A stretch of DNA of 64,000 bases, taken from positions 4,092,001 through 4,156,000 of the forward strand of contig NZ_CP077800.1 in NCBI RefSeq assembly GCF_019112525.1, written 5' to 3'. Under the pieces are notes generated by a model that saw only the letters and a list, made by a program, of their open reading frames with translations, searched no databases and was not told the DNA's origin. Made by a program: the position numbers and the translations under genes. Of the stretch, positions 51,494 through 64,000 are shown one piece after another. The stretch's first letter is position 1, and every line of letters starts with the position of its first letter. The stretch is from Modestobacter sp. L9-4 (lineage in GTDB: Bacteria > Actinomycetota > Actinomycetes > Mycobacteriales > Geodermatophilaceae).

Positions 51494-53962
51494 TCAGGTG
51501 CCGCGGGGCTTGGCGCGGCGGGTCGGCGCGGCGGACGCCGGGTCCTCCGGCCACGGGTGGCGCGGGTACCGGCCGCGGAGCTCGCTGCGCACGGCCGGGT
51601 AGCCGGTGACCCAGAACCCGGCCAGGTCGGCGGTGGTGGCGACGACCCGGGAAGCGGGGGAGAGCAGCTGCAGCCGCAACGGCCGGCCGGCGACCACCGG
51701 TGCCGCAGCCCAGCCGAACAGCTCCTGCACGCGCGCGGACAGCGTCGGCACATCCGGGTCGGAGTAGTCGACGCGCACCGCGGACCCGGTCGGCACCTGC
51801 ACGCGCTCGGGCACCAGCTCGTCGAGCCGGCCGGCCAGCTCCCACGGCAGCAGGGAGCGCAGCGCGGCGACGACGTCGACCCGGGTCAGGTCGCGGCGGC
51901 TGCGGGCGCCGGACAGCGCCGGGCCCTGTCCCAGCGCGGCCAGCAGCGACTCGTCGTCCACGGCCGGCCAGGGGTCGCCGAGCCCGGCACGGGCCGCAGC
52001 GAGCCGTTCGCGCAGCGCGGTGGCCGCCGGCGTCCAGCGCAGCAGGGCCAGGCCCTCGCGGCGCAGTCCCTCGGCCAGGGCGGCGGTGACCGCGGCCGGG
52101 TCGGGGTCGGGCAGCGGGCGCTCGGCCAGCACGATCGCACCGAGCCGTTCGACGCGGGCGGCGGAGACGTCGCCGTCCCGCCAGGTGACCTCCGGGCCGT
52201 CGGTGTGCGCGGCCGCCCCGGCCTCCAGCGCGGTGGCCTCGTCGACGGCGACCGCGGTGCGGACCCGGGCGTCGCGTCGTCCCGGCGCCCGGTCGGCCGC
52301 GGCGACGGCCAGCCAGGGTGCACCGGCCAGCGCGGTGCCCGGGGCGAGCTCGGCACCGGTGCCGGCGGCCAGCAGGTAGGTGCGCTCGGTGCCCGGGCGG
52401 CGGCGTGCCAGCCACTCGGGGTGCGCCAGCCCCACGACCAGGCCGGCGGCGACGTCGTCGGGCAGCCGGGTGTCCGGGGCGTCCGGGGCGGCGCGGGTCA
52501 GCCGGGCCACCTCGTCGCGCCAGCGCCCGTCGCGGCTCCGGCGGACCTCGCGCCAGTCGGACACCAGGTCGTCGGAGCGGGACGGGACGTCGGAGGACAG
52601 CAGCGCGACCACCTCCGCGGCCCGGCGCCGGCCGACCAGCGGTGTGCCGTCCAGCAGCGCCCGGGCCAGCCGCGGGTGTGCACCGACCGCGGTCAGCGAC
52701 CGCCCGCGCGGGGTGACCCGGCCGGCGTCGTCCACCGCACCGAGCTGGCGCAGGGTGGCGCGGGCGACGGTGAACGCGGCGTCCGGCGGGGTGTCGGGCA
52801 GGGCCAGCCCGGTGCCGTCGGGCTCGCCCCAGCAGGCCAGCTCCAGCGCCAGGCCGGTCAGGTCGGCGACGGCGATCTCCGGCTCGGGCGCGGCGGGCAG
52901 CCGGTCGTGCTCGGCGGCCGACCACAGCCGGTACACCCGGCCCGGCGCCTCGCGCCCGGCGCGACCGGCCCGCTGGGTGGCGGCGGCCCGCGACACCCGC
53001 ACGGTGACCAGGGAGCCGAGCCCGCGGGCGACGTCGTAGCGCGGCACCCGGGCGAGCCCGGCGTCGACCACGGTGCGCACGCCGGGGACGGTCAGGCTGG
53101 TCTCGGCGACATCGGTGGACAGCACCACCCGTCGCCGCGGCCCGGCGGTGAGCGCGGCGTCCTGGTCGGCGCTGGGCAGCCGACCGTGCAGCGGCCGGAC
53201 GTCGGCGTCGATCCCGGACAGGAGCCCGGCGACCCGGCCGATCTCGGCGGCGCCGGGCAGGAAGACCAGGACGTCGCCGCTGGTCTCGGCCAGCGCCCGG
53301 CGCACGGTGTCGGCCACCGCAGCCAGCAGCCGCGGGTCGACGTGCAGCCCGTGCGCCGGCGCGACCGGGGGAGAGGGCGGGCACCACACCGGCTCGACGT
53401 CGTGCAGCGACCCGGTGGCCGCCACGACCGGGGCGTGCCCCATCAGCTCGGCCAGCCGGTCGGCCTGCGCCGTCGCCGACATGGCCAGCAGCTCCAGCTC
53501 CGGGCGCAGCGAGCCGCGGACGTCGAGGGTGAACGCCAGTGCGAGGTCGGTGTCCAGGGCGCGCTCGTGGCACTCGTCGAGCACCACGGCGTCGATGCCG
53601 GGCAGCTCCGGGTCGGCCTGCAGCCGGCGCACCAGCAGCCCGGTGGTGACCACCTCGACCCGGGTGGCGGCGCTGCGCTGGGAGTCCCCGCGCACGCTGT
53701 AGCCGACCGAGCGGCCCACCGGCTCACCGAGCAGGGCGGCCATCCGCCGGGCGGCGGCGCGGGCCGCGACCCGGCGCGGCTCGGCCACCAGGATGCGACC
53801 GGGGAGCCGGTCGGCCAGCGCGAGCGGCACGAGCGTCGTCTTGCCGGTGCCGGGCGGGGCGACCAGGACGGCGGCGCCACCGCGGTCGAGGGCGGCGTCC
53901 AGGTCCTGGAGGACCGAACGCACGGGGAGGTCGGTCCCCGGCGTCCCGGTCGGTGGCAGCAC
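51494..53962 (-). CDS. hrpB: ATP-dependent RNA helicase HrpB
   Basis: 822 residues, normal for HrpB. DEAH/RHA helicase core: Walker A APPGTGKTT (about residues 39-47), motif Ib TTGLLVRRL, DECHERALDTDLAL, MSATAQADRL, STDVAETSLTVPGVRTVVD and QRAGRAGREAPGRVYRLW. Then come the winged-helix/ratchet region and the HrpB C-terminal domain with YPAVRSELRGRYPRHPWPEDP, diagnostic for the family. The acid box reads DECH instead of DEAH, as usual for HrpB. GTG 53962 is chosen; CAGACT 6 nt upstream suggests a leaderless start. Confidence 0.95.
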   Translation of the reverse strand: MLPPTGTPGTDLPVRSVLQDLDAALDRGGAAVLVAPPGTGKTTLVPLALADRLPGRILVAEPRRVAARAAARRMAALLGEPVGRSVGYSVRGDSQRSAATRVEVVTTGLLVRRLQADPELPGIDAVVLDECHERALDTDLALAFTLDVRGSLRPELELLAMSATAQADRLAELMGHAPVVAATGSLHDVEPVWCPPSPPVAPAHGLHVDPRLLAAVADTVRRALAETSGDVLVFLPGAAEIGRVAGLLSGIDADVRPLHGRLPSADQDAALTAGPRRRVVLSTDVAETSLTVPGVRTVVDAGLARVPRYDVARGLGSLVTVRVSRAAATQRAGRAGREAPGRVYRLWSAAEHDRLPAAPEPEIAVADLTGLALELACWGEPDGTGLALPDTPPDAAFTVARATLRQLGAVDDAGRVTPRGRSLTAVGAHPRLARALLDGTPLVGRRRAAEVVALLSSDVPSRSDDLVSDWREVRRSRDGRWRDEVARLTRAAPDAPDTRLPDDVAAGLVVGLAHPEWLARRRPGTERTYLLAAGTGAELAPGTALAGAPWLAVAAADRAPGRRDARVRTAVAVDEATALEAGAAAHTDGPEVTWRDGDVSAARVERLGAIVLAERPLPDPDPAAVTAALAEGLRREGLALLRWTPAATALRERLAAARAGLGDPWPAVDDESLLAALGQGPALSGARSRRDLTRVDVVAALRSLLPWELAGRLDELVPERVQVPTGSAVRVDYSDPDVPTLSARVQELFGWAAAPVVAGRPLRLQLLSPASRVVATTADLAGFWVTGYPAVRSELRGRYPRHPWPEDPASAAPTRRAKPRGT

Positions 53963-54136
53963 CGGGTCAGTCTGACCGACTCGGTGGCGTCGTCCGACGG
54001 CTCGCGCCGGGGAGGGCCCCGCTCCCGTGCCCGGCGGCCCGGGGCCCACGGACCCTCGGCGCCGCCCGCGCCACACCGACCGGTGCGGCGGACCCGTCCG
54101 GTGTGTCCGTCGGGGTCACCGCCGTGCACCGGTGGG

Positions 54137-54142
54137 TAGCCT
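54137..54142 (+). promoter_or_regulatory. Probable -10 box (TAGCCT), leaderless
   Basis: TAGCCT ends 6 nt before the ATG of the following TetR gene; no ribosome-binding site is present. Confidence 0.45.
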
Positions 54143-54148
54143 GCGCGC

Positions 54149-54757
54149 ATGGGTGCACCGTCGCGTCCCGTCGGTCGCCCCCGGGAGTTCGACGTGGACC
54201 GGGCGCTGGACGTCGCCGTCCGCCTGTTTTGGGAACGGGGCTACGAGGGCACCAGTCTCGCCGACCTGACCGACGCCATGGGCATCTCGAAGCCGAGCTT
54301 CTACGCCGCGTTCGGCGACAAGGAGCAGCTCTTCCGGCGCGCCCTGGACCGGTACACCGAGGGGCCGGCCTCCTACGCCCTCGCTGCGCTGGAGGAGCCG
54401 ACGGCCCGGCAGGTCGTCGCAGCGTTCCTCGACGGTGCGGTGCGCGCCACGACCCCGGAGGCGGGGCCGGCCGGGTGCCTGGGTGTCCAGGGTGCGCTCG
54501 CGTCGAGCAGTGCCGGCCGGACCGCACACGACGTGCTCGCGGGCTGGCGGAACGACGCCGGCACGCGTCTGGAGGCGCGCTTCCGGCGCGCCGTGGACGA
54601 GGGCGACCTCCCGTCCGGCGTGGACCCGGGGAGTCTGGCCCGGTACGTCATGACCGTCGGCTTCGGCATCGCCGTCCAGGCCGCCAGCGGCGTGGGCCGC
54701 GCGGACCTCCAGCTGGTCGCCGACGTGGCGAAGCAGAACTGGCGACCTCAGGGCTGA
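54149..54757 (+). CDS. TetR-family regulator (AcrR-like) before an aldo/keto reductase
   Basis: 202 residues. GRPREFDVDRALDVAVRLFWERGYEGTSLADLTDAMGISKPSFYAAFGDKEQLF is the DNA-binding part. The C-terminal domain is TetR_C_16-like with GCLGVQGALASSSAG around the ligand site, a cysteine-containing segment seen in redox-responsive members. It is transcribed in the same direction as the aldo/keto reductase gene 285 bp downstream; a near-palindrome in that gap may be its target. Confidence 0.88.
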   Translation: MGAPSRPVGRPREFDVDRALDVAVRLFWERGYEGTSLADLTDAMGISKPSFYAAFGDKEQLFRRALDRYTEGPASYALAALEEPTARQVVAAFLDGAVRATTPEAGPAGCLGVQGALASSSAGRTAHDVLAGWRNDAGTRLEARFRRAVDEGDLPSGVDPGSLARYVMTVGFGIAVQAASGVGRADLQLVADVAKQNWRPQG

Positions 54758-54873
54758 CGCCCCGACCGGCGCCCGGGCCGGGGGTGCGGTCGTCGAGACC
54801 GACCGCAGCACCCCCCGGGGCCGAGGTGGACCTCACCCGTCGCCCCACCGACGGCCCGGGAGTCGACTCGTGG

Positions 54874-54897
54874 CTATTTCTGTACCGCACGGAATAG
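54874..54897. promoter_or_regulatory. AT-rich near-palindrome CTATTTC-N10-GGAATAG
   Basis: Two 7-base arms with one mismatch, in the 284-bp gap between the TetR and aldo/keto reductase genes. It is the most AT-rich spot of that gap and may hold the promoter and operator of the reductase gene. Confidence 0.4.
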
Positions 54898-55041
54898 AAC
54901 TCCGGTGGTGTGACTTCGAGGCAGGGAGACGTCACCGCGGGCGGCGTCTCGGCGACCAGCACCGTCCCACCTCCGACGCCCGGCGCCGGCCGGGACCGGT
55001 GGGACGACCACAGCGACCTGTTCGAGGAAGAGGACGACCAC

Positions 55042-56013
<972 letters not shown>

Positions 56014-56164
56014 CGGTCCGCGGCCGGCCCGGTCGGTCCCGACGTCGTCAGGTCGGGGCCGGCCGGGCCGGTCGGCCCGCGGGGCAGGACCCCGGACGCC
56101 GGTGGCGCCCGGGCGCGGAGGTGGTGCGGCAGTGTCGAATGCGGGATCCCAGGAGGCAGCGGAC

Positions 56165-57289
56165 GTGACAGACCCTCGTGCGGGCGGACGTGCCGTCGAG
56201 CCGGACGGGCGCCGGCCGATCGGCGTGGGCGTCGTCGGACTGAGTGCGGCGGGGGGCTGGGGTGCCGGGGCGCACCTGCCGGTGCTGTCGGCGGTCGGCG
56301 GGTTCGAGCTCCGTGGTCTGGTGGGCAGCTCGCCGACGTCGGCGCGTGCGGCGAGCCGGGCGTACGGCGTGCCCGCGTACCCCTCGGCCGGAGAGCTCGC
56401 CGCGGCAGCCGACGTCGACCTCGTCGTGGTCACGGTCCGAACCCCTCGCCACCGCGAGCTGGTCCTGCCCGCACTCGCCGCCGGCACACCGGTGTTCTGC
56501 GAGTGGCCCCTCGCCGTGGACCTCCGGGAGGCGGAGGAGCTCGCCGCGGCGGCGCAGGGCATCCCCACCTCCGTCGGCCTGCAGGGCCGGTCCTCGCCCA
56601 CCTTCCGCTGGTTGGCCGACCTCGTGTCCGACGGCTACGTGGGCGACCTGCTCTCGGTCACCGTCTCCGCGGCGTCGACCGAGTGGGGGAGCCCGGTCGC
56701 GGACCGCATGCTCCACACCCTCGACCGCGATCTCGGTGCCAGCATGATGGCCATCGCCTTCGGTCACGCCATCGACTCCGTGTCGATGGTCGTCGGGGAG
56801 CTGCAGGACGTGGTCGCGACGACGGCGACCCGGCACCGGTACGTCCCACTCGCCTCCGGCGGTCGGCAGGTGCCGATGACGGCGGAGGACCAGATCGCCG
56901 TCTCGGGCACCCTGCCCGGCGGTGCGGTGCTCTCCGCCCACCACCGGGGCGGCACGGCCTCCGGGGCCGGGTTCTCGATGACCATCGACGGCTCGGACGG
57001 CACGATCGTGGCCACGGCACCCGACCACCCGCACGTCACGCCGGTCACGGTGCACGGCGTGCGCGGTCGTGGCCGGCCTGCCGAGCTGACGCTCCCCGGT
57101 CGCTACGACCGGTTCCCCGAGCTCGCCCGGTCTCCGGTCCACACCCTGGCGCACGCGTACGCGGGCATCCGCGACCAGCTCCTGGGCGGTGCGACCGTCG
57201 TGCCCGACTTCGACGACGCGGTCGTGCGGCACCGGCTCCTCGACGCGATCACCCGGTCCGCCGCCACCGGTCGACGGGTCGAGGTCTGA
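56165..57289 (+). CDS. Gfo/Idh/MocA-family oxidoreductase, Gal80-like
   Basis: 374 residues. N-terminal Rossmann fold with GVGVVGLSAAGGWGAGAHLP, then VDLVVVTVRTPRHRELV and the EWPLAVD motif in place of the usual EKP. This variant with Trp is typical of Gal80-like proteins, where the catalytic Lys is missing, so the protein may bind rather than oxidise its sugar ligand. The C-terminal domain is the GFO_IDH-type beta-sheet. GTG 56165 has AGGAGG 8 nt upstream; GTG 56132 is the alternative. Followed 80 bp later by another reductase gene. Confidence 0.85.
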   Translation: MTDPRAGGRAVEPDGRRPIGVGVVGLSAAGGWGAGAHLPVLSAVGGFELRGLVGSSPTSARAASRAYGVPAYPSAGELAAAADVDLVVVTVRTPRHRELVLPALAAGTPVFCEWPLAVDLREAEELAAAAQGIPTSVGLQGRSSPTFRWLADLVSDGYVGDLLSVTVSAASTEWGSPVADRMLHTLDRDLGASMMAIAFGHAIDSVSMVVGELQDVVATTATRHRYVPLASGGRQVPMTAEDQIAVSGTLPGGAVLSAHHRGGTASGAGFSMTIDGSDGTIVATAPDHPHVTPVTVHGVRGRGRPAELTLPGRYDRFPELARSPVHTLAHAYAGIRDQLLGGATVVPDFDDAVVRHRLLDAITRSAATGRRVEV

Positions 57290-57369
57290 GCGGCCGCTGC
57301 CCCGGGCGCCCACTCGCGCCCGGCCGTGGGACGCGCCGCAGCCCGCCCGTCCTGGGAGGATCGGCGACC

Positions 57370-58398
57370 GTGATCACCGACGACCGCACCGACCAGACCT
57401 GGGCGCCTGCGCCCGACCGTTACCAGGCCACCGACTACCGCCGGGCCGGGCGCAGCGGGCTGCTGCTGCCGCCGGTCTCGCTGGGCCTCTGGCAGAACTT
57501 CGGCGCCGACCGGCCGCTGGCCACCGCGCGGGACATCCTGCGGCGGGCCTTCGACCTCGGCGTCACGCACTTCGACCTGGCCAACAACTACGGCCCGCCC
57601 TACGGGTCGGCGGAGACCACCTTCGGTCAGGTCCTGGCCAGCGACCTGCGCCCGTACCGCGACGAGCTGCTCATCTCGAGCAAGGCCGGCTACGACATGT
57701 GGCCCGGCCCGTACGGCGACGGCGGCTCCCGCAAGTACCTCGTGGCCAGCCTCGACCAGACGCTGCGCCGCACCGGCCTGGACTACGTCGACGTCTTCTA
57801 CTCCCACCGGCGTGACGTCGACACCCCGCTCGAGGAGACGATGGGCGCCCTGGACGCCGTCGTCCGCGCGGGCAAGGCGCTCTACGTCGGCATCTCCAAC
57901 TACTCGCCCGAGGACACCGCGCGCGCCGCGGAGCTGCTGGCCGGGCTGGGGACGCCGCTGACGCTGCACCAGCCGAGGTACTCGATCTTCGACCGGGTCC
58001 CGGAGGGCGGCGTGCTCGACGCGGCGGCCACCGCCGGTGCCGGCGTGGCCGTGTTCTCCCCGCTGGCGCAGGGCCGGCTCACCGACCGCTACCTGAAGGG
58101 CGTCCCCGAGGGCTCCCGGGCGACCCGCAGCGCCTACCTCTCCGCCGGCGACGTCACCGAGGACCTCACCGAGCGCGCCCGCGCGCTGAACGAGATCGCC
58201 GCCGGCCGCGGCCAGACGCTGGCCCAGCTCGCACTGCGCTGGGTGCTGCGCGACCCCCGCGTCACCACCGCGATCATCGGTGCCAGCTCGGTGGCCCAGT
58301 TGGAGGGCAACCTGCAGGCGCTGCAGGGTCCCGACCTCACCGACGCCGAGCTCGCCGCCATCGAGCCGCTGGCCGCACCCGCCGGCGAGAGCCTCTGA
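57370..58398 (+). CDS. Aldo/keto reductase, YghZ/GPR type
   Basis: 342 residues; the E. coli relative YghZ reduces L-glyceraldehyde 3-phosphate and methylglyoxal. Family signatures are YRRAGRSGLLLPPVSLGLWQNFG, FDLANNYGPPYGSAE (catalytic Asp and Tyr), ISSKAGYDMWPGPYGDGGSRKY (Lys), FYSHRRDVDTPLEE (His) and IIGASSVAQLEGNL. Same strand as the Gal80-like gene 80 bp upstream; a possible two-gene sugar-aldehyde unit. GTG 57370 after GGGAGG. Confidence 0.94.
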   Translation: MITDDRTDQTWAPAPDRYQATDYRRAGRSGLLLPPVSLGLWQNFGADRPLATARDILRRAFDLGVTHFDLANNYGPPYGSAETTFGQVLASDLRPYRDELLISSKAGYDMWPGPYGDGGSRKYLVASLDQTLRRTGLDYVDVFYSHRRDVDTPLEETMGALDAVVRAGKALYVGISNYSPEDTARAAELLAGLGTPLTLHQPRYSIFDRVPEGGVLDAAATAGAGVAVFSPLAQGRLTDRYLKGVPEGSRATRSAYLSAGDVTEDLTERARALNEIAAGRGQTLAQLALRWVLRDPRVTTAIIGASSVAQLEGNLQALQGPDLTDAELAAIEPLAAPAGESL

Positions 58399-58402
58399 CG
58401 GT

Positions 58403-58439
58403 CGTCCCGTCGCCGGGCCCCCCGCCCGGCGACGGGACG
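58403..58439. terminator. Strong stem-loop between convergent genes
   Basis: Perfect 16-bp stem (58403-58418 with 58424-58439) and a 5-base loop, 4 bp after the aldo/keto reductase stop and before the phosphatase stop on the other strand. Confidence 0.85.
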
Positions 58440-58467
58440 CGCGGGCGACTCAGTCCAGCCGGACGGT

Positions 58468-60768
58468 TCAGCCCAGCCGGACGGCGATGACGGCGACGTC
58501 GTCGGAGGGCGTCTCGGCCAGCCGCATCAGCACCTCGCACAGCTCGCCGGGCGAGGCGGTGGGCGGCTGGGCGGCCAGCGTCGCGGTGAGCCGGTCCAGG
58601 CCCTGGTCCAGGTGCTGGTCGCCGGCGCGCTCGATGAGCCCGTCGGTGTAGGCGACGAGCGTGCTGCCCCGGGGCGCCCACACCGTGGTCGAGGCGCGCA
58701 CCGTGGCCGGCTCGACGCCGAGGATCAGCCCGTGCACCTCCTCGAGCAGGTGCACGGTGCCGTCGGGGTCCCGCAGGGCCAGCGGCGGGTGGCCGGCGTT
58801 GGCGATCACCAGTCGCCACCGGTCCTCGATCGCGGGTACCGGCCGGTGCGCGTGCACGTGGGTGAGGGTGGCGAGCCCCCGCACGGCGAGGACGTCCATC
58901 AGTTCGTCGACGCGGGCCAGGACGTCGGCGGGGTCGGGGCGGGTGGCGTCGTAGGCGCTGGCACGCAGCAGCCCACGGAGCTGGCCCATGGTGGCCGCGG
59001 CGTCGATGTCGTGGCCGGCGACGTCGCCGATGCTGATCCCGATGCTGGCGTCGGGCAGGGTCATGAGGTCGTAGAAGTCCCCGCCGACCGCGGCGGCCGC
59101 CGACGCCGACTCGTACCGCGCGGCGGCCTGCACCCCGGCCAGGTCGGGGAGGGTGGGCAGCAGCGCACGCTGCAGGGTCTCGGCGACCGAGCGTTCGCTC
59201 TGGTACAGCCGGGCGTTGTCCAGCGCGAGGCCCGCGCGGCCGGCCAGGTCGGTGAGCAGCTCCACCGCGTCCGGGGTGAACGCGCCCGCCCGTGCGCTGG
59301 TCAGCACCAGCACGCCCAGCGTGGCGCCGCGCGCCTGCAGGGGCAGCGCGACGAGCGACCCGATGGCCAGGACGTCGGCGAGGTGGTGCACCTCGGAGTC
59401 GGGGTAGCGCGCCCGGGCCTCGGCGGAGGAGACGTCCTCGATCAGCGTCGCGACGCCGCTGCGCAGCGAGTCCGCAGCAGCCGAGTGGTGGGCCAGCGGC
59501 CGGCCGGTGACCCGGCTGGTCAGCTGGGCGAGGGTGTCGGCCCGCCCGTCGCGGTGGCGCACGGCGGTGGCGGTGATGACGTCGTCGGCGCCGAGCCGGG
59601 CGATGAACGCCGAGTCGGCCAGCGCGGGCACGCACAGCCCGGTGATGCGCTCCATCAGGTCGTCGACGTCCAGCGTGCCGGTCATCGTGGCCGAGGCCTC
59701 GTTCATCAGCTGCAGCCGCCGCCGGGCGGCCTCGGCGGCCTCCCTGGCCACGCGCTCGGCCGCCAAGGTGGCCTCGCGCTGGTGCTCGAGCTCGACCTGC
59801 CGGGTCACGTCGTGCTGCACGCCGACGTAGTTGGTCAGCTCGCCGGCGCCGTCGAAGATCGGGGTGAGGGTGAGCTGGTTCCAGAACGTGGAGCCGTCGC
59901 TCCGGTAGTTGAGCAGGGTGACGGTCTCCTGGCGCCCGGCGGCCACGGCCTCCCGGACGGCGGTCACCGCCGCCGGGTCCGTGGCGGGCCCCTGCAGGAA
60001 GCGGCAGTTGAAGCCGATCGCCGCCTCGGCGGGGTAGCCGGTCACCGCGGTGAAGGCGGGGTTCACCCAGACCAGCGGGTTGTCCGGCCGGCGGGCGTCG
60101 GAGATGGTGAAGCAGACCTCGGTGGCCGCGATCGCCTCCTCGCGCAGCCGCTGCAGCCGCTCCTGCTGCGCGGCCGGGCCCGCCGTGTCGCGGGGCCCGG
60201 GGTGCGGCACCAGCACCACGAGCGACAGGCCGGGGTGCTCGGACCCGTCCTGCCCCCGCGGGTGCGCGATGGCGCCGCCGGTGAGGGGGACGCCGGTCAT
60301 CGACAGCAGGTCCCGCGCGTCGGGGTCCGACGGTAGTCCACGGCCGGCGGCTGGGCGCAGCCGGACCGGCCGACCGTCCACCGGCAGGCCCCGGGCCACC
60401 TGCGCCAGCGGACCCTCGGGGCCGGCCAGGGCCTGCCCGTCCGCGTCGGTCAACCCGGCCGCGGCGCCCCAGGTGTCGAGGTCCACCGGCAGGGCGACGT
60501 CCCCGGCCAGTGCGATCGCCGCCCGGTTGGCGAAGGTCACCCGGCCGTCGGCCCGGTCGATCAGCAGCACCGCGACCAGCGAGTCGCCGAGGGCCGCGGG
60601 CAGCGCCCGCCCGGCGTCGCCCGGCCAGGCCGACACCGCGGACGCCGTCCGGGCGAGGACGTCGGCCCGGGCGTCGGTGCTCGTCGGCTCGGGCGGACCG
60701 CCCTGCGCCGGGGTCGCGGCGGCCGGCGTCCCGCCCCGGGCGGGGCCGTCGTGACCGGCTGCGCGCAT
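58468..60768 (-). CDS. LOV-GAF-SpoIIE (PP2C) phosphatase, probable blue-light receptor
   Basis: 766 residues. A first PAS-like region (about 45-190) precedes a LOV domain (about 208-325). The LOV signature GFNCRFLQGPATDP (Cys255 forms the flavin adduct) is complete, and the flavin-contact residues are present in LLNYRSDGSTFWNQL and NYVGVQHDVT. A coiled-coil linker, a GAF domain (about 365-520) and a SpoIIE/PP2C phosphatase follow, with VGGDFYDL, GDVAGHDIDAAA, NAGHPPLAL, VAYTDGLIERAG and SDDVAVIAVRLG. Predicted to dephosphorylate an anti-sigma-factor antagonist (STAS protein) upon blue light and activate a stress sigma factor. TACTCT 7 nt before the ATG suggests a leaderless start. No STAS or anti-sigma gene is in the window. 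Confidence 0.92.
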   Translation of the reverse strand: MRAAGHDGPARGGTPAAATPAQGGPPEPTSTDARADVLARTASAVSAWPGDAGRALPAALGDSLVAVLLIDRADGRVTFANRAAIALAGDVALPVDLDTWGAAAGLTDADGQALAGPEGPLAQVARGLPVDGRPVRLRPAAGRGLPSDPDARDLLSMTGVPLTGGAIAHPRGQDGSEHPGLSLVVLVPHPGPRDTAGPAAQQERLQRLREEAIAATEVCFTISDARRPDNPLVWVNPAFTAVTGYPAEAAIGFNCRFLQGPATDPAAVTAVREAVAAGRQETVTLLNYRSDGSTFWNQLTLTPIFDGAGELTNYVGVQHDVTRQVELEHQREATLAAERVAREAAEAARRRLQLMNEASATMTGTLDVDDLMERITGLCVPALADSAFIARLGADDVITATAVRHRDGRADTLAQLTSRVTGRPLAHHSAAADSLRSGVATLIEDVSSAEARARYPDSEVHHLADVLAIGSLVALPLQARGATLGVLVLTSARAGAFTPDAVELLTDLAGRAGLALDNARLYQSERSVAETLQRALLPTLPDLAGVQAAARYESASAAAAVGGDFYDLMTLPDASIGISIGDVAGHDIDAAATMGQLRGLLRASAYDATRPDPADVLARVDELMDVLAVRGLATLTHVHAHRPVPAIEDRWRLVIANAGHPPLALRDPDGTVHLLEEVHGLILGVEPATVRASTTVWAPRGSTLVAYTDGLIERAGDQHLDQGLDRLTATLAAQPPTASPGELCEVLMRLAETPSDDVAVIAVRLG

Positions 60769-60852
60769 GAGCGCGAGAGTAGGTGACCGGCGATCGGGTG
60801 GTGCACGAGCTGTCCGCAGCGGACGGGCCGGAGCCCGTCTCGCGGAGCAGGC

Positions 60853-61563
60853 TCAGCCGAGGTCGTGCACCGAGAGCTCTCCGCGGAGCAGCTCGCCGGC
60901 GATCTCGTCGACCAGGCGGCCGGAGCCGTAGGCCCGGGACCGCAGCACCGCCAGCGCGTCGACGTCGGAGGTGTCGAGGACCTGCCGGACCAGGTCCACC
61001 GCCTGCCAGGTGAGTGCCCGGACCCGGGCGCCGGGTGTGTCGAGCCAGTGCTGCAGGCCCGGCTGGTGTGGGGCCGCCCAGCTGGTGGAGGTGGTCAGCG
61101 CGGCCGACACCAGGCCGACGACGGCGGAGGCGTCGAAGCTGTCCAGCTGCAGCGGCCCGGCGGGGTCCTCCAGGTAGACGACCAGGGCACCGACGCCGGT
61201 CAGACCGTGGGTCATCGGGTGGGCCACGACGCTGCGGTAGGGGGTCTGCGTGCGCAGCAGGTCGTGGTAGACCGGCCACCGCCGGTGGAGGTAGGACTCG
61301 ACGGCGAAGAGCGGGAACTGGGTGTCCACCGCCACCAGGCACGGGCCGGTGCCCACGGTGAACTGCAGCTGCTCGGCCGTCCTCGGCATGGCACCGCTGG
61401 CACCCAGCAGGGTCGGCTGCTCGGCGGCCAGGGACAACCCCACCCCGTCCACACGCAGGGCCGCGGCAGCGGCCCGGCTCAGCTGGTCGGGCAGGGGGTC
61501 GGTGCGGTCGGGGGAGGACCGCGCCTCGACGAGCGCGGTGGTGAAGCGGGCGGCGATGTCCAT
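60853..61563 (-). CDS. GAF-ANTAR RNA-binding regulator
   Basis: 236 residues. GAF domain (about 20-160; ALRVDGVGLSLAAEQPTLL, QFTVGTGPCLVAV, VVAHPMTHGLTGVGALVVYL) and a C-terminal ANTAR three-helix domain (ALAVLRSRAYGSGRLVDEIAGELLRGEL), which binds paired hexaloop hairpins to stop termination. Encoded 84 bp upstream of the LOV-phosphatase gene on the same strand, so the two may be cotranscribed and both act in light or stress signalling. ATG 61563 is chosen because the open frame upstream reads as Arg/Pro-rich shadow. Confidence 0.88.
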   Translation of the reverse strand: MDIAARFTTALVEARSSPDRTDPLPDQLSRAAAAALRVDGVGLSLAAEQPTLLGASGAMPRTAEQLQFTVGTGPCLVAVDTQFPLFAVESYLHRRWPVYHDLLRTQTPYRSVVAHPMTHGLTGVGALVVYLEDPAGPLQLDSFDASAVVGLVSAALTTSTSWAAPHQPGLQHWLDTPGARVRALTWQAVDLVRQVLDTSDVDALAVLRSRAYGSGRLVDEIAGELLRGELSVHDLG

Positions 61564-61893
61564 GAGGCTCTCGGCTGCGCTGGTCCACCGGGGTGGGGAC
61601 CAGGACGGGGGCCGGGCCGCGCTGTGGGACCCGGTCACCCGCGTGCACGTCCGCGGGTGGGAGCCGGCGGGTGCGGACACGAGCCTGCGGGTGCCGGGGC
61701 CGGCGCGCCACCCGGGGAGCCCAGGCCGTGGAGGCGGCGCCCACCCGGCCCACCGTCCGGGCGCACGCGGACCGTCGTGCACCTCGGTCCTGCGCCGGTG
61801 TCCGGGGTCGGGGACGACGACGAGTCCCCGCCCGGCGGACCGGGCGGGGACTCGTGGCTGTCGCTCGGGCCGCGGGGCGGCCCGGTGCAGGGA
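61564..61893. other. 330-bp gap with a terminator
   Basis: No gene. Contains the stem-loop at 61821-61854, which serves the lipoprotein gene on the minus strand, and the upstream region of the GAF-ANTAR gene. No convincing -10 box for the latter and no ANTAR-type twin hexaloop hairpins that I can support. Confidence 0.5.
61821..61854 (-). terminator. Stem-loop terminator of the lipoprotein gene
   Basis: Perfect 15-bp stem (CGAGTCCCCGCCCGG and its complement) with a 4-base loop, 40 bp after the lipoprotein stop on the minus strand. Confidence 0.8.
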
Positions 61894-62568
61894 CTACTTG
61901 GTCTCGACCGTGAGGGTCGCGACACCGACGACGAGGCCCTTGGTGACCGCGCTGGTGCTGAAGGTCTTGTTCAGCAGGTCGGCGGCCTCGGCGGACATGA
62001 GCACGCGCGTCCCGGTGAGCACCGCGGCGCCGTCGGCGTTCATCGTGATCGGCTGGAGCGTCGAGCCGTCCAGGTCGAACAGCGGGGCGCTGGCGGCGGC
62101 GAGCTCGCCGTTGACCGACACGTTGCCGAACAGGCGGGCCGGGTCACCCGGGTCGATCGTGAAGTCGGTCAGCTCGACGGTCGTGCCGCCCGCGGTCAGG
62201 CTCAGGCCGCTGCCCTCGTGGAACAGGACGCCCTGCACGAAGGGGCGGTAGCCCGAGTCCTTGTCGTACAGCGTCACGGTGCCGCCGGTGATCGGGAAGC
62301 TGACCGAGCCGTCGGCCAGCGTGGCGGTGCCGACCGTGCCGGGGGTCAGGCCGAGCTGCCCGAGGGCGGCGGTGAAGCCGGGGTCCAGGGCGACGGCGGA
62401 GCTGCCGCCGGGGACGGCGGCGACGGTGGCGGTCGCGGCGGGGGCGCTGACCGACGAGGTGCCGGTGTCCGCGCTGGCCGAGCCGCCACAGGCGCTCAGG
62501 CCGAACGCCGCGCTGACGGCGATGGCGGCGGCGAGGGAGGTGCGGGCGAGAGCCGTGGTGGTGCGCAT
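61894..62568 (-). CDS. Lipoprotein of unknown function
   Basis: 224 residues. Signal peptide from ATG 62568 (RTTTALARTSLAAAIAVSAA) with lipobox LSAC followed by GGS, then a Ser/Ala/Thr linker and a beta-rich domain with regular strands (GSVSFPITGGTVTLYDKDSG, GLSLTAGGTTVELTDFTIDP, FGNVSVNGELAAASAPLFDL). Anchored on the outer face of the membrane. The repetitive beta pattern may be a small beta-sandwich; I do not recognise the family, and HtaA-like heme binding is only a weak possibility. GAGGAG precedes the start. Confidence 0.75.
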   Translation of the reverse strand: MRTTTALARTSLAAAIAVSAAFGLSACGGSASADTGTSSVSAPAATATVAAVPGGSSAVALDPGFTAALGQLGLTPGTVGTATLADGSVSFPITGGTVTLYDKDSGYRPFVQGVLFHEGSGLSLTAGGTTVELTDFTIDPGDPARLFGNVSVNGELAAASAPLFDLDGSTLQPITMNADGAAVLTGTRVLMSAEAADLLNKTFSTSAVTKGLVVGVATLTVETK

Positions 62569-62722
62569 GGGAACTCCTCGTGTCTGGGACCTGACGGCGC
62601 CCCACCGGGTGGGCGGGACCTCGTCGATCACCAGGGGTTCGAGCCTGTGCGGCGCACCGGATGGACCCTGTCGCGACGGTCACCCGAACGGGTGGGACGG
62701 CGGTCCCGACCCCGTGTCCGGC

Positions 62723-63208
62723 TCAGGCGCGGGACGTCGCGCCGGGCGTGGCGCGGCCCGTGCCGGCCTGGTGGGACCGGCGCCACCGCACGAGGCGGAC
62801 CAGCAGGAGGACCGCGGACAGCGCGAAGAGCGCACCGGTGAGGGCCAGCCAGCGCCCGAGGTACCCCGACTGGTCCAGCCCGGTCGCCGCCCGGAAGGTG
62901 CCCTCGCTGCGGCGGGTGATCTCCGGTGCCCACACGAGCAGCAGGAGCAGGGACAGGGCCGCGGGGAACCGGACGTGGCCCCACCACCAGGGCCGGGCAC
63001 CGGCGCCGCGGCCGGCCCGGTCCAGGGCCAGGTAGAGCGGTGCCAGGACCAGGTCGTGGACCAGCGCGGCACCGACCAGCCAGACGAGGACGGCGACCGG
63101 CCGGTCGCCCAGCAGCTGCCGGGCCGCGACCCCGGCGACGGCGAGAGCGGCCAGCGTGCCGGCCAGGTGCAGGGGGGAGGCGCCGTAGAGGCGGCGGAAG
63201 CGGTCCAC
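62723..63208 (-). CDS. Four-helix membrane protein next to a molybdoenzyme gene
   Basis: 161 residues. Helices: LAGTLAALAVAGVAARQLLG, AVLVWLVGAALVHDLVLAPLYL, FPAALSLLLLLVWAPEI and WLALTGALFALSAVLLLVRLV. Three bp after the molybdopterin oxidoreductase stop, so in the same operon. It may anchor the enzyme or belong to its electron-transfer unit, but has no heme-ligand pattern that I can assign with confidence. GTG start. Confidence 0.75.
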   Translation of the reverse strand: MDRFRRLYGASPLHLAGTLAALAVAGVAARQLLGDRPVAVLVWLVGAALVHDLVLAPLYLALDRAGRGAGARPWWWGHVRFPAALSLLLLLVWAPEITRRSEGTFRAATGLDQSGYLGRWLALTGALFALSAVLLLVRLVRWRRSHQAGTGRATPGATSRA

Positions 63209-63211
63209 GGC

Positions 63212-64000
63212 TCAGGCCTCGAAGGTCATCCGGGCGACCCACTTGGTGTTGTGCACCCCGGGGTTGGCCGGCACGATCACCCGCGCCGGGAAGCCGTGGT
63301 CGGGGGACAGGTCGGCGCCGTTCACCGTGAGGGCGAGCAGTGAGTCGCCGTCCGCGACCTGGTTGCCGCGCAGCCGGGCGGTGGCGAACGCGCCGCCCTG
63401 CTCCAGCGACTCCACGAGCACCGACGACGGAGCGGGCTGACCGGCCAGCGCGGCGAGGTCCCGCAGCCGGACGCCCGTCCACGTCTGGTCACCGGTCGAC
63501 CACCCCTCCACGCAGGCGATCGGCAGCCCCGCGGTGTGCTGGGGGAGGGCCAGCAGGTCCGCGCGCGTGAGCACCACGGGAGCACCGGCCCCGCGCAGCT
63601 CCAGCTGCCAGCCCGCCCCGGCCGCCTGCGCGTCGATGCCGGCGGCCGCGGCCGTCCGGTTGACCTGGAACCCGTTCGGGCCGGTCCCGGGGTCCCGGTT
63701 GCGGGGTGCCAGCAGCGCCGTCCTGCGCAGCGGTCCGCCGAGGCTCTGCCCGACGGTGGAGACCAGCACGACCCCCGCGCCGGCGCCGACGAGCGCGAGG
63801 ACGCCGCGGCGGGAGACGCTCGGGTGGTCCGGGGCGGGGCTGACCAGACCGTCGGCGTCCGGCGGCTCGGGGACCGTCGCCGCCGTCGGCGTCCGCAGCT
63901 CGTCGCGCAGCCGGCGGGAGCCCAGGCTGCTGCGCATGCGGCCGAACTTGAGGCACACGTGCAGCACGAAGGCGGACATGAACACCCAGCCGCCCCAGAA
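63212..64000 (-). CDS. Molybdopterin-dependent oxidoreductase (sulfite-oxidase-like), 5'-truncated by the window
   Basis: 263 codons present; the frame is open to the window edge, so the start lies outside. The edge sequence GGWVFMSAFVLHVCLKFGRM looks like the last helix of an N-terminal membrane domain of cytochrome b561 type. After a polar linker a second membrane segment (GVLALVGAGAGVVLVSTVG) leads to the oxidoreductase domain. That has the molybdenum-binding Cys in IACVEGWSTGDQTW, GVRLRDLAALAG, LLALTVNGADLSPDHGFPAR and GVHNTKWVARM at the end. A membrane-anchored sulfite-oxidase-family protein that would act outside the membrane. Confidence 0.88.
   Translation of the reverse strand, partial: FWGGWVFMSAFVLHVCLKFGRMRSSLGSRRLRDELRTPTAATVPEPPDADGLVSPAPDHPSVSRRGVLALVGAGAGVVLVSTVGQSLGGPLRRTALLAPRNRDPGTGPNGFQVNRTAAAAGIDAQAAGAGWQLELRGAGAPVVLTRADLLALPQHTAGLPIACVEGWSTGDQTWTGVRLRDLAALAGQPAPSSVLVESLEQGGAFATARLRGNQVADGDSLLALTVNGADLSPDHGFPARVIVPANPGVHNTKWVARMTFEA

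Follow-up and report, generated by a model that had tools for sequence, protein, structure and literature searches.

The complete genome of the soil actinobacterium Modestobacter sp. L9-4 (4,224,113 bases) contains a 64,000-nucleotide stretch (contig NZ_CP077800.1, positions 4,092,001 to 4,156,000) that was analysed here and is hereafter referred to as the window. Towards its end lie a gene for a LOV-SpoIIE phosphatase (gene 1) and a gene for a GAF protein with a degenerate ANTAR domain (GAF-pseudoANTAR, gene 2). An initial annotation, made from the sequence, had placed both open reading frames, their common minus strand and the 84-bp gap between them correctly. It had further proposed that the two genes form one light-controlled unit joining a phosphatase to transcription antitermination. 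Coordinates are collected in Table 1; an in-frame GTG at 61782 is a possible alternative start for gene 2. Below, coordinates in kb refer to the L9-4 genome (G000), and G and L numbers are genome and locus labels.

The domain content of gene 1 was assigned with Pfam, NCBIfam and structure databases. The PAS, LOV, GAF and SpoIIE regions each scored above the cut-off of at least one Pfam model. The N-terminal PAS region (PAS_8, 33.3 bits, cut-off 21.8) was missing from the initial description of the gene. The LOV domain matched PAS_9 with 78.2 bits (E 6.6e-22), solved LOV domains of the PDB at E 8.3e-34 (PAL at 6.9e-31) and, over the LOV region alone and under that model's cut-off, the NCBIfam YtvA-family model at 6.2e-38. 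The predicted LOV signature with its adduct cysteine is present, the cysteine being C255. The predicted fusion through a GAF domain to a complete SpoIIE phosphatase (E 1e-37) also held, with Pfam domains and signature residues intact. Candidate acidic residues of the metal site are D564, just N-terminal of the Pfam match, D582, D709 and D756/D757. In an alignment of 24 sequences (A2) these five aspartates, which we take to be the PP2C metal-binding set, were invariant in 24/24. The same was true of LOV residues N254, C255, L258, Q259, N287, N297 and Q318, of which the Asn and Gln residues presumably contact the flavin. Across a broader set of 18 rows, the signature residues of LOV and PP2C were again invariant or almost so. 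An AlphaFold 2 (AF2) model of gene 1, with a mean predicted local distance difference test score (pLDDT) of 76.2 and a predicted template modelling score of 0.41, predicts long helices at 322-363 and 499-534 that link LOV, GAF and phosphatase. Judged by its sequence, gene 1 has the layout of a standard light-gated phosphatase of the kind that acts in partner switching.

The LOV-SpoIIE architecture is already in print: passages of PMC4844311 include SpoIIE phosphatases in the set of partners typically found with flavin-based blue-light receptors of prokaryotes. Full-length homologues of gene 1 occur in other Geodermatophilaceae, Kineococcus, Kineosporia and Nocardioides, and relatives at E ≤ 1e-40, including matches to GAF-SpoIIE only, were found in at least 103 of 112 Geodermatophilaceae genomes. 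Among the matches listed from these 112 genomes the only close orthologues are those of Modestobacter sp. VKM Ac-2986 (G099, 74%) and M. muralis DSM 100205 (G091, 72%), the next full-length matches being at 51-53%. The L9-4 genome itself has 23 SpoIIE matches (22 after merging one split match), including a second LOV-SpoIIE gene at 2141.3-2143.6 kb whose product is 47% identical to that of gene 1. In alignment A2, 21 of 23 homologues were nearer to this second gene and only the two sister-species genes were nearer to gene 1. On these comparisons gene 1 is a divergent paralogue of the LOV-SpoIIE class with orthologues, among the matches listed, only in the two nearest species. A record titled 'UNVERIFIED_ORG: Bacillus sp. 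AZ43' (L118) carries a Geodermatophilaceae-like LOV-SpoIIE gene (48%); its organism label is probably wrong.

Gene 2 had been called a GAF-ANTAR gene. The ANTAR descent implied by this name is supported by its relatives, while the protein has neither an ANTAR match of its own in Pfam nor the expected residues. Its single Pfam match was sub-threshold (GAF, 14.6 bits against a cut-off of 22.4), and no ANTAR match appeared at E ≤ 10, the filters of the tool dropping most matches above ~0.1. A search of the whole L9-4 genome with PF03861 yielded 10 ANTARs, none inside the window. Homologues at 1e-5 were present in at least 107 of the 112 Geodermatophilaceae genomes. In the gene 2 family (alignment A1, 25 sequences) 24 members match PF03861 weakly, at best at 1.5e-5, and only the window protein gives no match. 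The family profile matched the eight canonical ANTARs of the L9-4 genome in a profile-profile comparison (E 2.4e-5, probability 75.7), and its best solved-structure match was PAL (PDB 6hmj), over the C-terminus, at E 0.0027. The alternative that gene 2 is unrelated to ANTAR was rejected because of the 24/25 relatives that match PF03861. For gene 2, AF2 gave a model (mean pLDDT 87.6) with a GAF domain and three C-terminal helices, 177-196, 200-214 and 218-227; its input alignment contained four canonical GAF-ANTARs.

Residues of the ANTAR domain were numbered as in EutV, following passages of PMC8934654 and the 6wsh alignment; since the window protein is gap-free within the ANTAR domain alignment, its residues map directly. 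It keeps R182 and R208, and V189, L204 and D219 replace the lysine, the aromatic residue and the arginine expected there. The replacements are general in the family: position 149 is V, M, L, I or A, with lysine absent in 25/25, position 164 is leucine in 25/25 and never aromatic, and position 179 is D or E in 25/25. The net charge of the domain is -4 to 0. The canonical ANTARs of the same genome have K149, F164 and R179 in 8/8 and charges of +1 to +3; EutV, PAL, Rv1626 and NasR all have R142, K149 and an aromatic residue at 164, with charges of +2, 0, +6 and +4. According to passages of PMC8934654, Y164 of EutV stacks on the flipped G4 base, which is held by R142, K149 and E160. The substitution Y164A costs 55-fold in RNA binding and E160A 60-fold, and M172A or N173A/R175A/R177A abolishes binding; K149 is not among the mutants in these passages. 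In NasR, W362A, the equivalent of EutV Y164, led to loss of binding, as a passage of PMC7496416 reports. In gene 2 the ANTAR helices are predicted to be kept while, by alignment, residues used to read RNA are lost. We refer to the domain as a pseudo-ANTAR: it derives from an ANTAR but probably no longer reads hexaloops.

Table 1. Features of the gene 1/gene 2 locus; positions are those of the window
Feature	Position	Strand	Basis
Gene 1: PAS-LOV-GAF-SpoIIE (PP2C) phosphatase, 766 residues from ATG	58468..60768	-	Open reading frame, Pfam, NCBIfam, alignment A2, AF2 model
Gene 2: GAF-pseudoANTAR, 236 residues from ATG	60853..61563	-	Open reading frame, alignment A1 (25 sequences), AF2 model
Gap between gene 1 and gene 2, 84 bp	60769..60852	.	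Sequence, promoter/terminator and hexaloop scans
Gene 1, N-terminal PAS core, residues 62-96 (PAS_8)	60481..60585	-	PAS_8, better of two stretches
Gene 1, LOV domain, residues 227-322	59803..60090	-	PAS_9, YtvA-family model, PDB LOV matches
Gene 1, GFNCRFLQ motif, residues 252-259	60015-59992	-	Cys255 codon 60006-60004
Gene 1, GAF domain, residues 366-517	59218..59673	-	GAF_2, 45.0 bits
Gene 1, SpoIIE/PP2C domain, Pfam match residues 573-765	58474..59052	-	SpoIIE, 130.4 bits, cut-off 25
Gene 2, GAF fold, ~residues 22-162	61078..61500	-	
Gene 2, degenerate ANTAR, residues 177-227, three predicted helices	60883..61035	-	Alignments, profile-profile comparison, residue comparison, AF2
Context: TetR, aldo/keto reductase, Gfo/Idh oxidoreductase, aldo/keto reductase	54149..58398	+	Pfam, synteny

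Several observations weigh against a loss of RNA reading. The equivalents of R142 and R168 are intact in 25/25 members of the gene 2 family, which have D at position 160. The canonical ANTARs of L9-4 themselves differ from EutV at K143, K147, E160, R168, M172, N173 and R175, so that only K149, aromatic 164 and R179 split the two groups cleanly. AmiR, a solved ANTAR outside the residue comparison, has Q142 and H164 and keeps K149; R142 and an aromatic residue at 164 are thus not universal in ANTARs. Charge is weak evidence, since PAL, with a net charge of 0, falls within the range of the gene 2 family. Among 27 pseudo-ANTARs from the wider class, described below, position 164 is looser (22 L, 4 F and 1 V). 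A different mode of RNA binding by gene 2 is, on these residues, possible. More broadly, gene 2 could bind nucleic acid in another way, either other RNA through a different surface or DNA. The retained arginines and an aromatic residue at 172 in 24/25 members are consistent with this, as are the Foldseek rows that span the whole gene 2 model. These rows comprise LuxR-type chains (SdiA, TraR, LasR, RhlR), CodY, phytochrome and other chains, with E ~1e-3 for the regulators. LuxR-type regulators and CodY bind DNA. However, the whole-length rows are poor superpositions (root-mean-square deviation 11.5-16, TM score ~0.4), the VIA-align rows cover mainly residues 1-168, that is, the GAF domain, and the domain charge is lower than in the eight canonical ANTARs of L9-4, although PAL is neutral as well. 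No ANTAR entry was present in the Foldseek and VIA-align rows shown for the model. We regard nucleic acid binding of this other kind as unlikely, and keep to a pseudo-ANTAR that probably does not read hexaloops.

The distribution of pseudo-ANTARs outside the Geodermatophilaceae was assessed by searching 394 genomes of the class with the A1 profile, and a match at 1e-25 was found in 79 of them. The best 30 of 97 matches, one per genome, were fetched, and tandems were counted at the 27 loci outside the family of the window and outside G322 (L187-L213). Position 149 is T or V in 27/27, and R142 is kept in 18/27. At 18 of the 27 loci, which represent 8 of the 10 families, the gene directly downstream on the same strand is another GAF-ANTAR gene, with K (in one case R) and F at the reading positions. 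The nine loci without a tandem are all seven of family f21, plus L202 and L210. In the f21 loci (L188, L189, L194, L195, L199, L203 and L204) R142 of the pseudo-ANTAR is also lost, being H or Q. The L9-4 genome has a tandem of its own at G000:C1:3730629-3731602 (L005), an A149/L164 gene followed by a K149/F164 gene. At the 30 window-type loci L011-L040 no second ANTAR was found within up to 1.5 kb.

In a 66-sequence tree the 23 canonical ANTARs stood apart from all pseudo-ANTARs, the window protein included, with support 0.999, a split that is only partly independent evidence because the pseudo and canonical labels rest on residue 149. Support is 1.0 for the window-type group and 0.805 for the node that joins this group to the f21 orphans. 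The same subgroups recur among pseudo-ANTARs and among their canonical partners: L196/L201/L207 (supports 1.0 and 0.988), L200/L209/L212 (0.992 and 0.951), L187/L192/L198/L205/L213 (0.999 and 0.999), L190/L191/L211 (0.895 and 0.45) and L005/L208 (0.59 and 0.99). The tandem pair therefore looks old and co-inherited. The position of a pseudo-ANTAR upstream of a canonical GAF-ANTAR suggests that the two form heterodimers. Tentatively, and as a possibility rather than an expectation, we propose an ancient actinomycete GAF-ANTAR heterodimer with one reading arm per dimer, of whose non-reading partner gene 2 would be an orphan descendant, now beside a blue-light phosphatase. Such an orphan could be free to titrate ANTARs or to acquire new protein targets. 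Neither the pseudo-ANTAR clade nor the tandem was found in the open-licence literature searched, and they are the part of this work worth following.

Synteny with the sister species bears on the origin of the gene 1/gene 2 pair. In L9-4 the block of TetR, aldo/keto reductase and Gfo/Idh genes, together with gene 1, sits between an HrpB helicase gene and gene 2. M. muralis has a gene 2 orthologue (61%) in the syntenic position, where gene 1 is missing; blocks matching 4138.9-4146.0 kb and 4162.0-4171.1 kb of L9-4 flank this orthologue. Its HrpB helicase gene lies ~2 kb from the gene 2 orthologue, and its syntenic stretch gave no match at 1e-15 to the TetR, the two aldo/keto reductase, the Gfo/Idh or the LOV gene. 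In VKM Ac-2986 the gene 2 orthologue (62%) keeps the 4162-4171 kb flank, the other flank being outside the fetched stretch. The gene 1 orthologues of both species lie at a place that matches 2328.8-2333.9 kb of L9-4, where L9-4 has a different sequence with no trace of a gene 1 orthologue. This arrangement indicates that the adjacency arose in the lineage of the window, through movement of the phosphatase gene or through gain and loss. A further GAF-pseudoANTAR paralogue (T149/L164) lies 6.9 kb past the end of the window (L153, G000:C1:4162872-4163579), and its counterpart is ~5 kb from that of gene 2 in both sister species.

The pairing was also sought elsewhere. Beside 29 other LOV-SpoIIE loci of the family no gene 2 relative was found within up to 1.5 kb, in a survey that sought gene 2 relatives only, without canonical ANTARs, and in which some flanks were under 1.5 kb. 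Beside 19 class-wide LOV-SpoIIE loci outside the L9-4 genome neither an ANTAR nor a gene 2 relative was found within up to 1.5 kb. Among 80 named loci with flanks of up to 10 kb (24 of the loci not over 20 kb), searched for both gene 2 relatives and canonical ANTARs, one or the other was present at 5, close to the ~4 that a density of 91 ANTARs per ~33 Mb would give by arithmetic. Direct adjacency of LOV-SpoIIE and ANTAR genes was seen at two of the 80, in Kineococcus siccus (L139:870-3843) and K. rubinsiae (L141:10001-12920). There the LOV-SpoIIE genes, 85% identical to each other, converge with a canonical GAF-ANTAR gene, with 50 and 26 bp, respectively, from match end to open frame. A conserved LOV-PP2C/ANTAR operon was rejected: the genes are separate in the sister species, and no pair was found within up to 1.5 kb at the 29 family and 19 class loci.

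These results bear directly on the unit proposed in the initial annotation, in which blue light would switch both the phosphatase and, through a co-transcribed GAF-ANTAR, antitermination, as one co-regulated module. The shared strand and the short gap without a recognised terminator speak for it. So do the Kineococcus pairs, whose GAF-ANTARs keep the equivalents of K149 and F164, and the control of an ANTAR by a LOV domain reported for PAL. It would also gain from the excess of SpoIIE/ANTAR neighbourhoods in the family described below. No sigma-70-like promoter or terminator was found in the gap, but the scan (60700-62000) was without power because shuffled sequence also scored 0.0. Twin-hexaloop ANTAR targets, for which the initial annotation had suggested a search, were sought in the leader and gap stretches, and no dual hexaloop was found in the 330-base leader or in 60700-60852 (shuffles gave 0.003). 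Rfam gave just two matches in 53000-64000, both far under their gathering scores, and a plasmid search gave no match at 1e-60. Among the 15 of 24 HATPase_c_2 matches of L9-4 that were listed, no partner-switching kinase lies within 400 kb, though such partners may act in trans. The Kineococcus pair, being convergent, is not an operon, and the frequency of ANTARs at the 80 named loci is close to that expected from density. The residue loss in 25/25 family members and the lineage-specific pairing make a joint light-antitermination unit unlikely, and, taken with the other points, we consider it highly improbable. Antitermination by gene 2 itself, which lacks K149 and aromatic 164, likewise finds no support, with no dual hexaloop found in the leader or in the gap.

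A statistical test of gene neighbourhoods gave a result that weighs on the other side. It covered seven complete genomes of the family with 91 ANTARs (74 from Pfam and 17 window-type) and used circular shifts for the expectation. Six weak PF03861 rows, which were window-type genes already counted, were dropped and two split SpoIIE matches merged. RsbW-like genes were taken, among the matches listed, as HATPase_c_2 at or above 33 bits, a threshold set by us; the GGDEF set comprised 150 of 207 matches, and the size of G007 was rounded. Of the 91 ANTARs, 12 lay within 3 kb of a SpoIIE gene, whereas the shifts gave 2.3 and none of 2000 reached 12. Some PP2C-ANTAR neighbourhoods are thus probably functional, and the window pair could be one of them. 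At the same distance SpoIIE genes were near RsbW-like genes in 37/129 cases (2.3 expected) and ANTARs near RsbW-like genes in 4/91 (1.6 expected, 187/2000 shifts). For the GGDEF controls there was no excess with ANTARs (3/91, 2.65 expected); SpoIIE gave 2/129 (4.1 expected) and RsbW-like genes 2/90 (2.65 expected). Within 10 kb, ANTARs were near SpoIIE in 27 cases (7.0 expected) and near RsbW-like genes in 15 (4.8 expected); 13 near GGDEF against 7.8 (140/2000 shifts) points to a possible slight general clustering. The shuffles treat genomes as independent; the test was repeated with one genome per genus. This gave 8 ANTAR/SpoIIE neighbourhoods against 1.74 (Poisson P 4e-4), or 6 against 1.24 (P 0.002) with the L9-4 genome left out. 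The enrichment, five times chance in Geodermatophilaceae, is absent from the open-licence literature searched, and it hints at a broader link between partner switching and ANTAR regulation in this family.

The enrichment speaks for a pairing at the protein level, in which the pseudo-ANTAR or its GAF domain would act without RNA, by attaching to the phosphatase, or to the STAS substrate of that enzyme, and tuning it. The contrast with the GGDEF control at 3 kb and the persistence with one genome per genus agree with it, as do a window-type gene in G022 lying 217 bp from a SpoIIE domain on the same strand and another in G063 (L022) with a GAF-SpoIIE neighbour. Yet window-type genes alone, without the L9-4 genome, gave only a weak excess within 3 kb (2/13 against 0.36, 155/3000 shuffles), and of 29 other window-type loci just one has a SpoIIE domain within 1.5 kb. 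Common descent of loci or a general clustering of signalling genes may account for part of the enrichment, and the slight ANTAR/GGDEF rise at 10 kb may be a sign of the latter. We judge a protein-level pair rather unlikely. For eight ANTARs, a SpoIIE gene and an RsbW-like gene both occur within 6 kb, and one of the eight is in L9-4. At G000:C1:2272694-2274912 (L159) of this genome SpoIIE, canonical GAF-ANTAR and RsbW-like HATPase genes stand consecutively on one strand. L159 is a better candidate for a phosphatase/ANTAR unit than the window pair.

Considering all of these data, we find it fairly probable that two regulators, a blue-light-gated phosphatase and an orphan pseudo-ANTAR that does not read hexaloops, were made neighbours by a rearrangement in this lineage. 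A functional link between gene 1 and gene 2 is possible but is not needed by this explanation. Light would form a flavin-Cys255 adduct in the LOV domain of gene 1, and the signal may pass through the following helix to the GAF domain and through the second long helix to a SpoIIE dimer. The phosphatase would dephosphorylate an anti-anti-sigma (STAS) protein encoded elsewhere, and this would release a stress sigma factor. Gene 2 may pair with canonical GAF-ANTARs in dimers, or titrate them, without reading hexaloops itself.

Gene 1 resembles the RsbU/RsbP-type SpoIIE phosphatases of B. subtilis, the sensor domains being connected through long helices, which in gene 1 are predicted, to a PP2C/SpoIIE domain that carries the acidic residues. 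A coiled-coil helical linker has been shown for RsbU, and the same was proposed for PAS- and GAF-linked phosphatases, according to passages of PMC12143880. Gene 1 differs from these enzymes in that LOV replaces the RsbU N-domain or plain PAS, in its additional GAF domain and in having no RsbW-like gene nearby, among the HATPase_c_2 matches listed. From the prokaryotic LOV-SpoIIE class, as presented in passages of PMC4844311, with which it shares the LOV sensor and the SpoIIE effector, it does not differ fundamentally.

A link between LOV and ANTAR is known within one polypeptide from PAL of Nakamurella multipartita (PAS-ANTAR-LOV), as the entry PDB 6hmj indicates. The window pair, like PAL, combines LOV and ANTAR elements; PAL is a single chain with the K149 and F164 equivalents, whereas the window has two reading frames and the ANTAR of gene 2 lacks both residues. 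With canonical actinobacterial GAF-ANTARs gene 2 shares ancestry and the order of GAF and ANTAR-derived domain, unlike them having lost the equivalents of K149, aromatic 164 and R179. EutV, NasR, AmiR and Rv1626 align without gaps over its ANTAR domain; gene 2 differs from them in its GAF input and in that most hexaloop-reading residues are gone. An ANTAR census used the Pfam ANTAR model at E 1e-4 (passages of PMC8164766). If the heterodimer proposal is true, a census by that model alone would miss many partner subunits, gene 2 itself having no match. For the crystal structure of EutV, passages of PMC8934654 describe a dimer proposed to engage only one hexaloop at any moment, through contacts that are unequal. 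A heterodimer of canonical and pseudo-ANTAR subunits, if it exists, would fit this structure and show how an ANTAR dimer could function with one reading arm.

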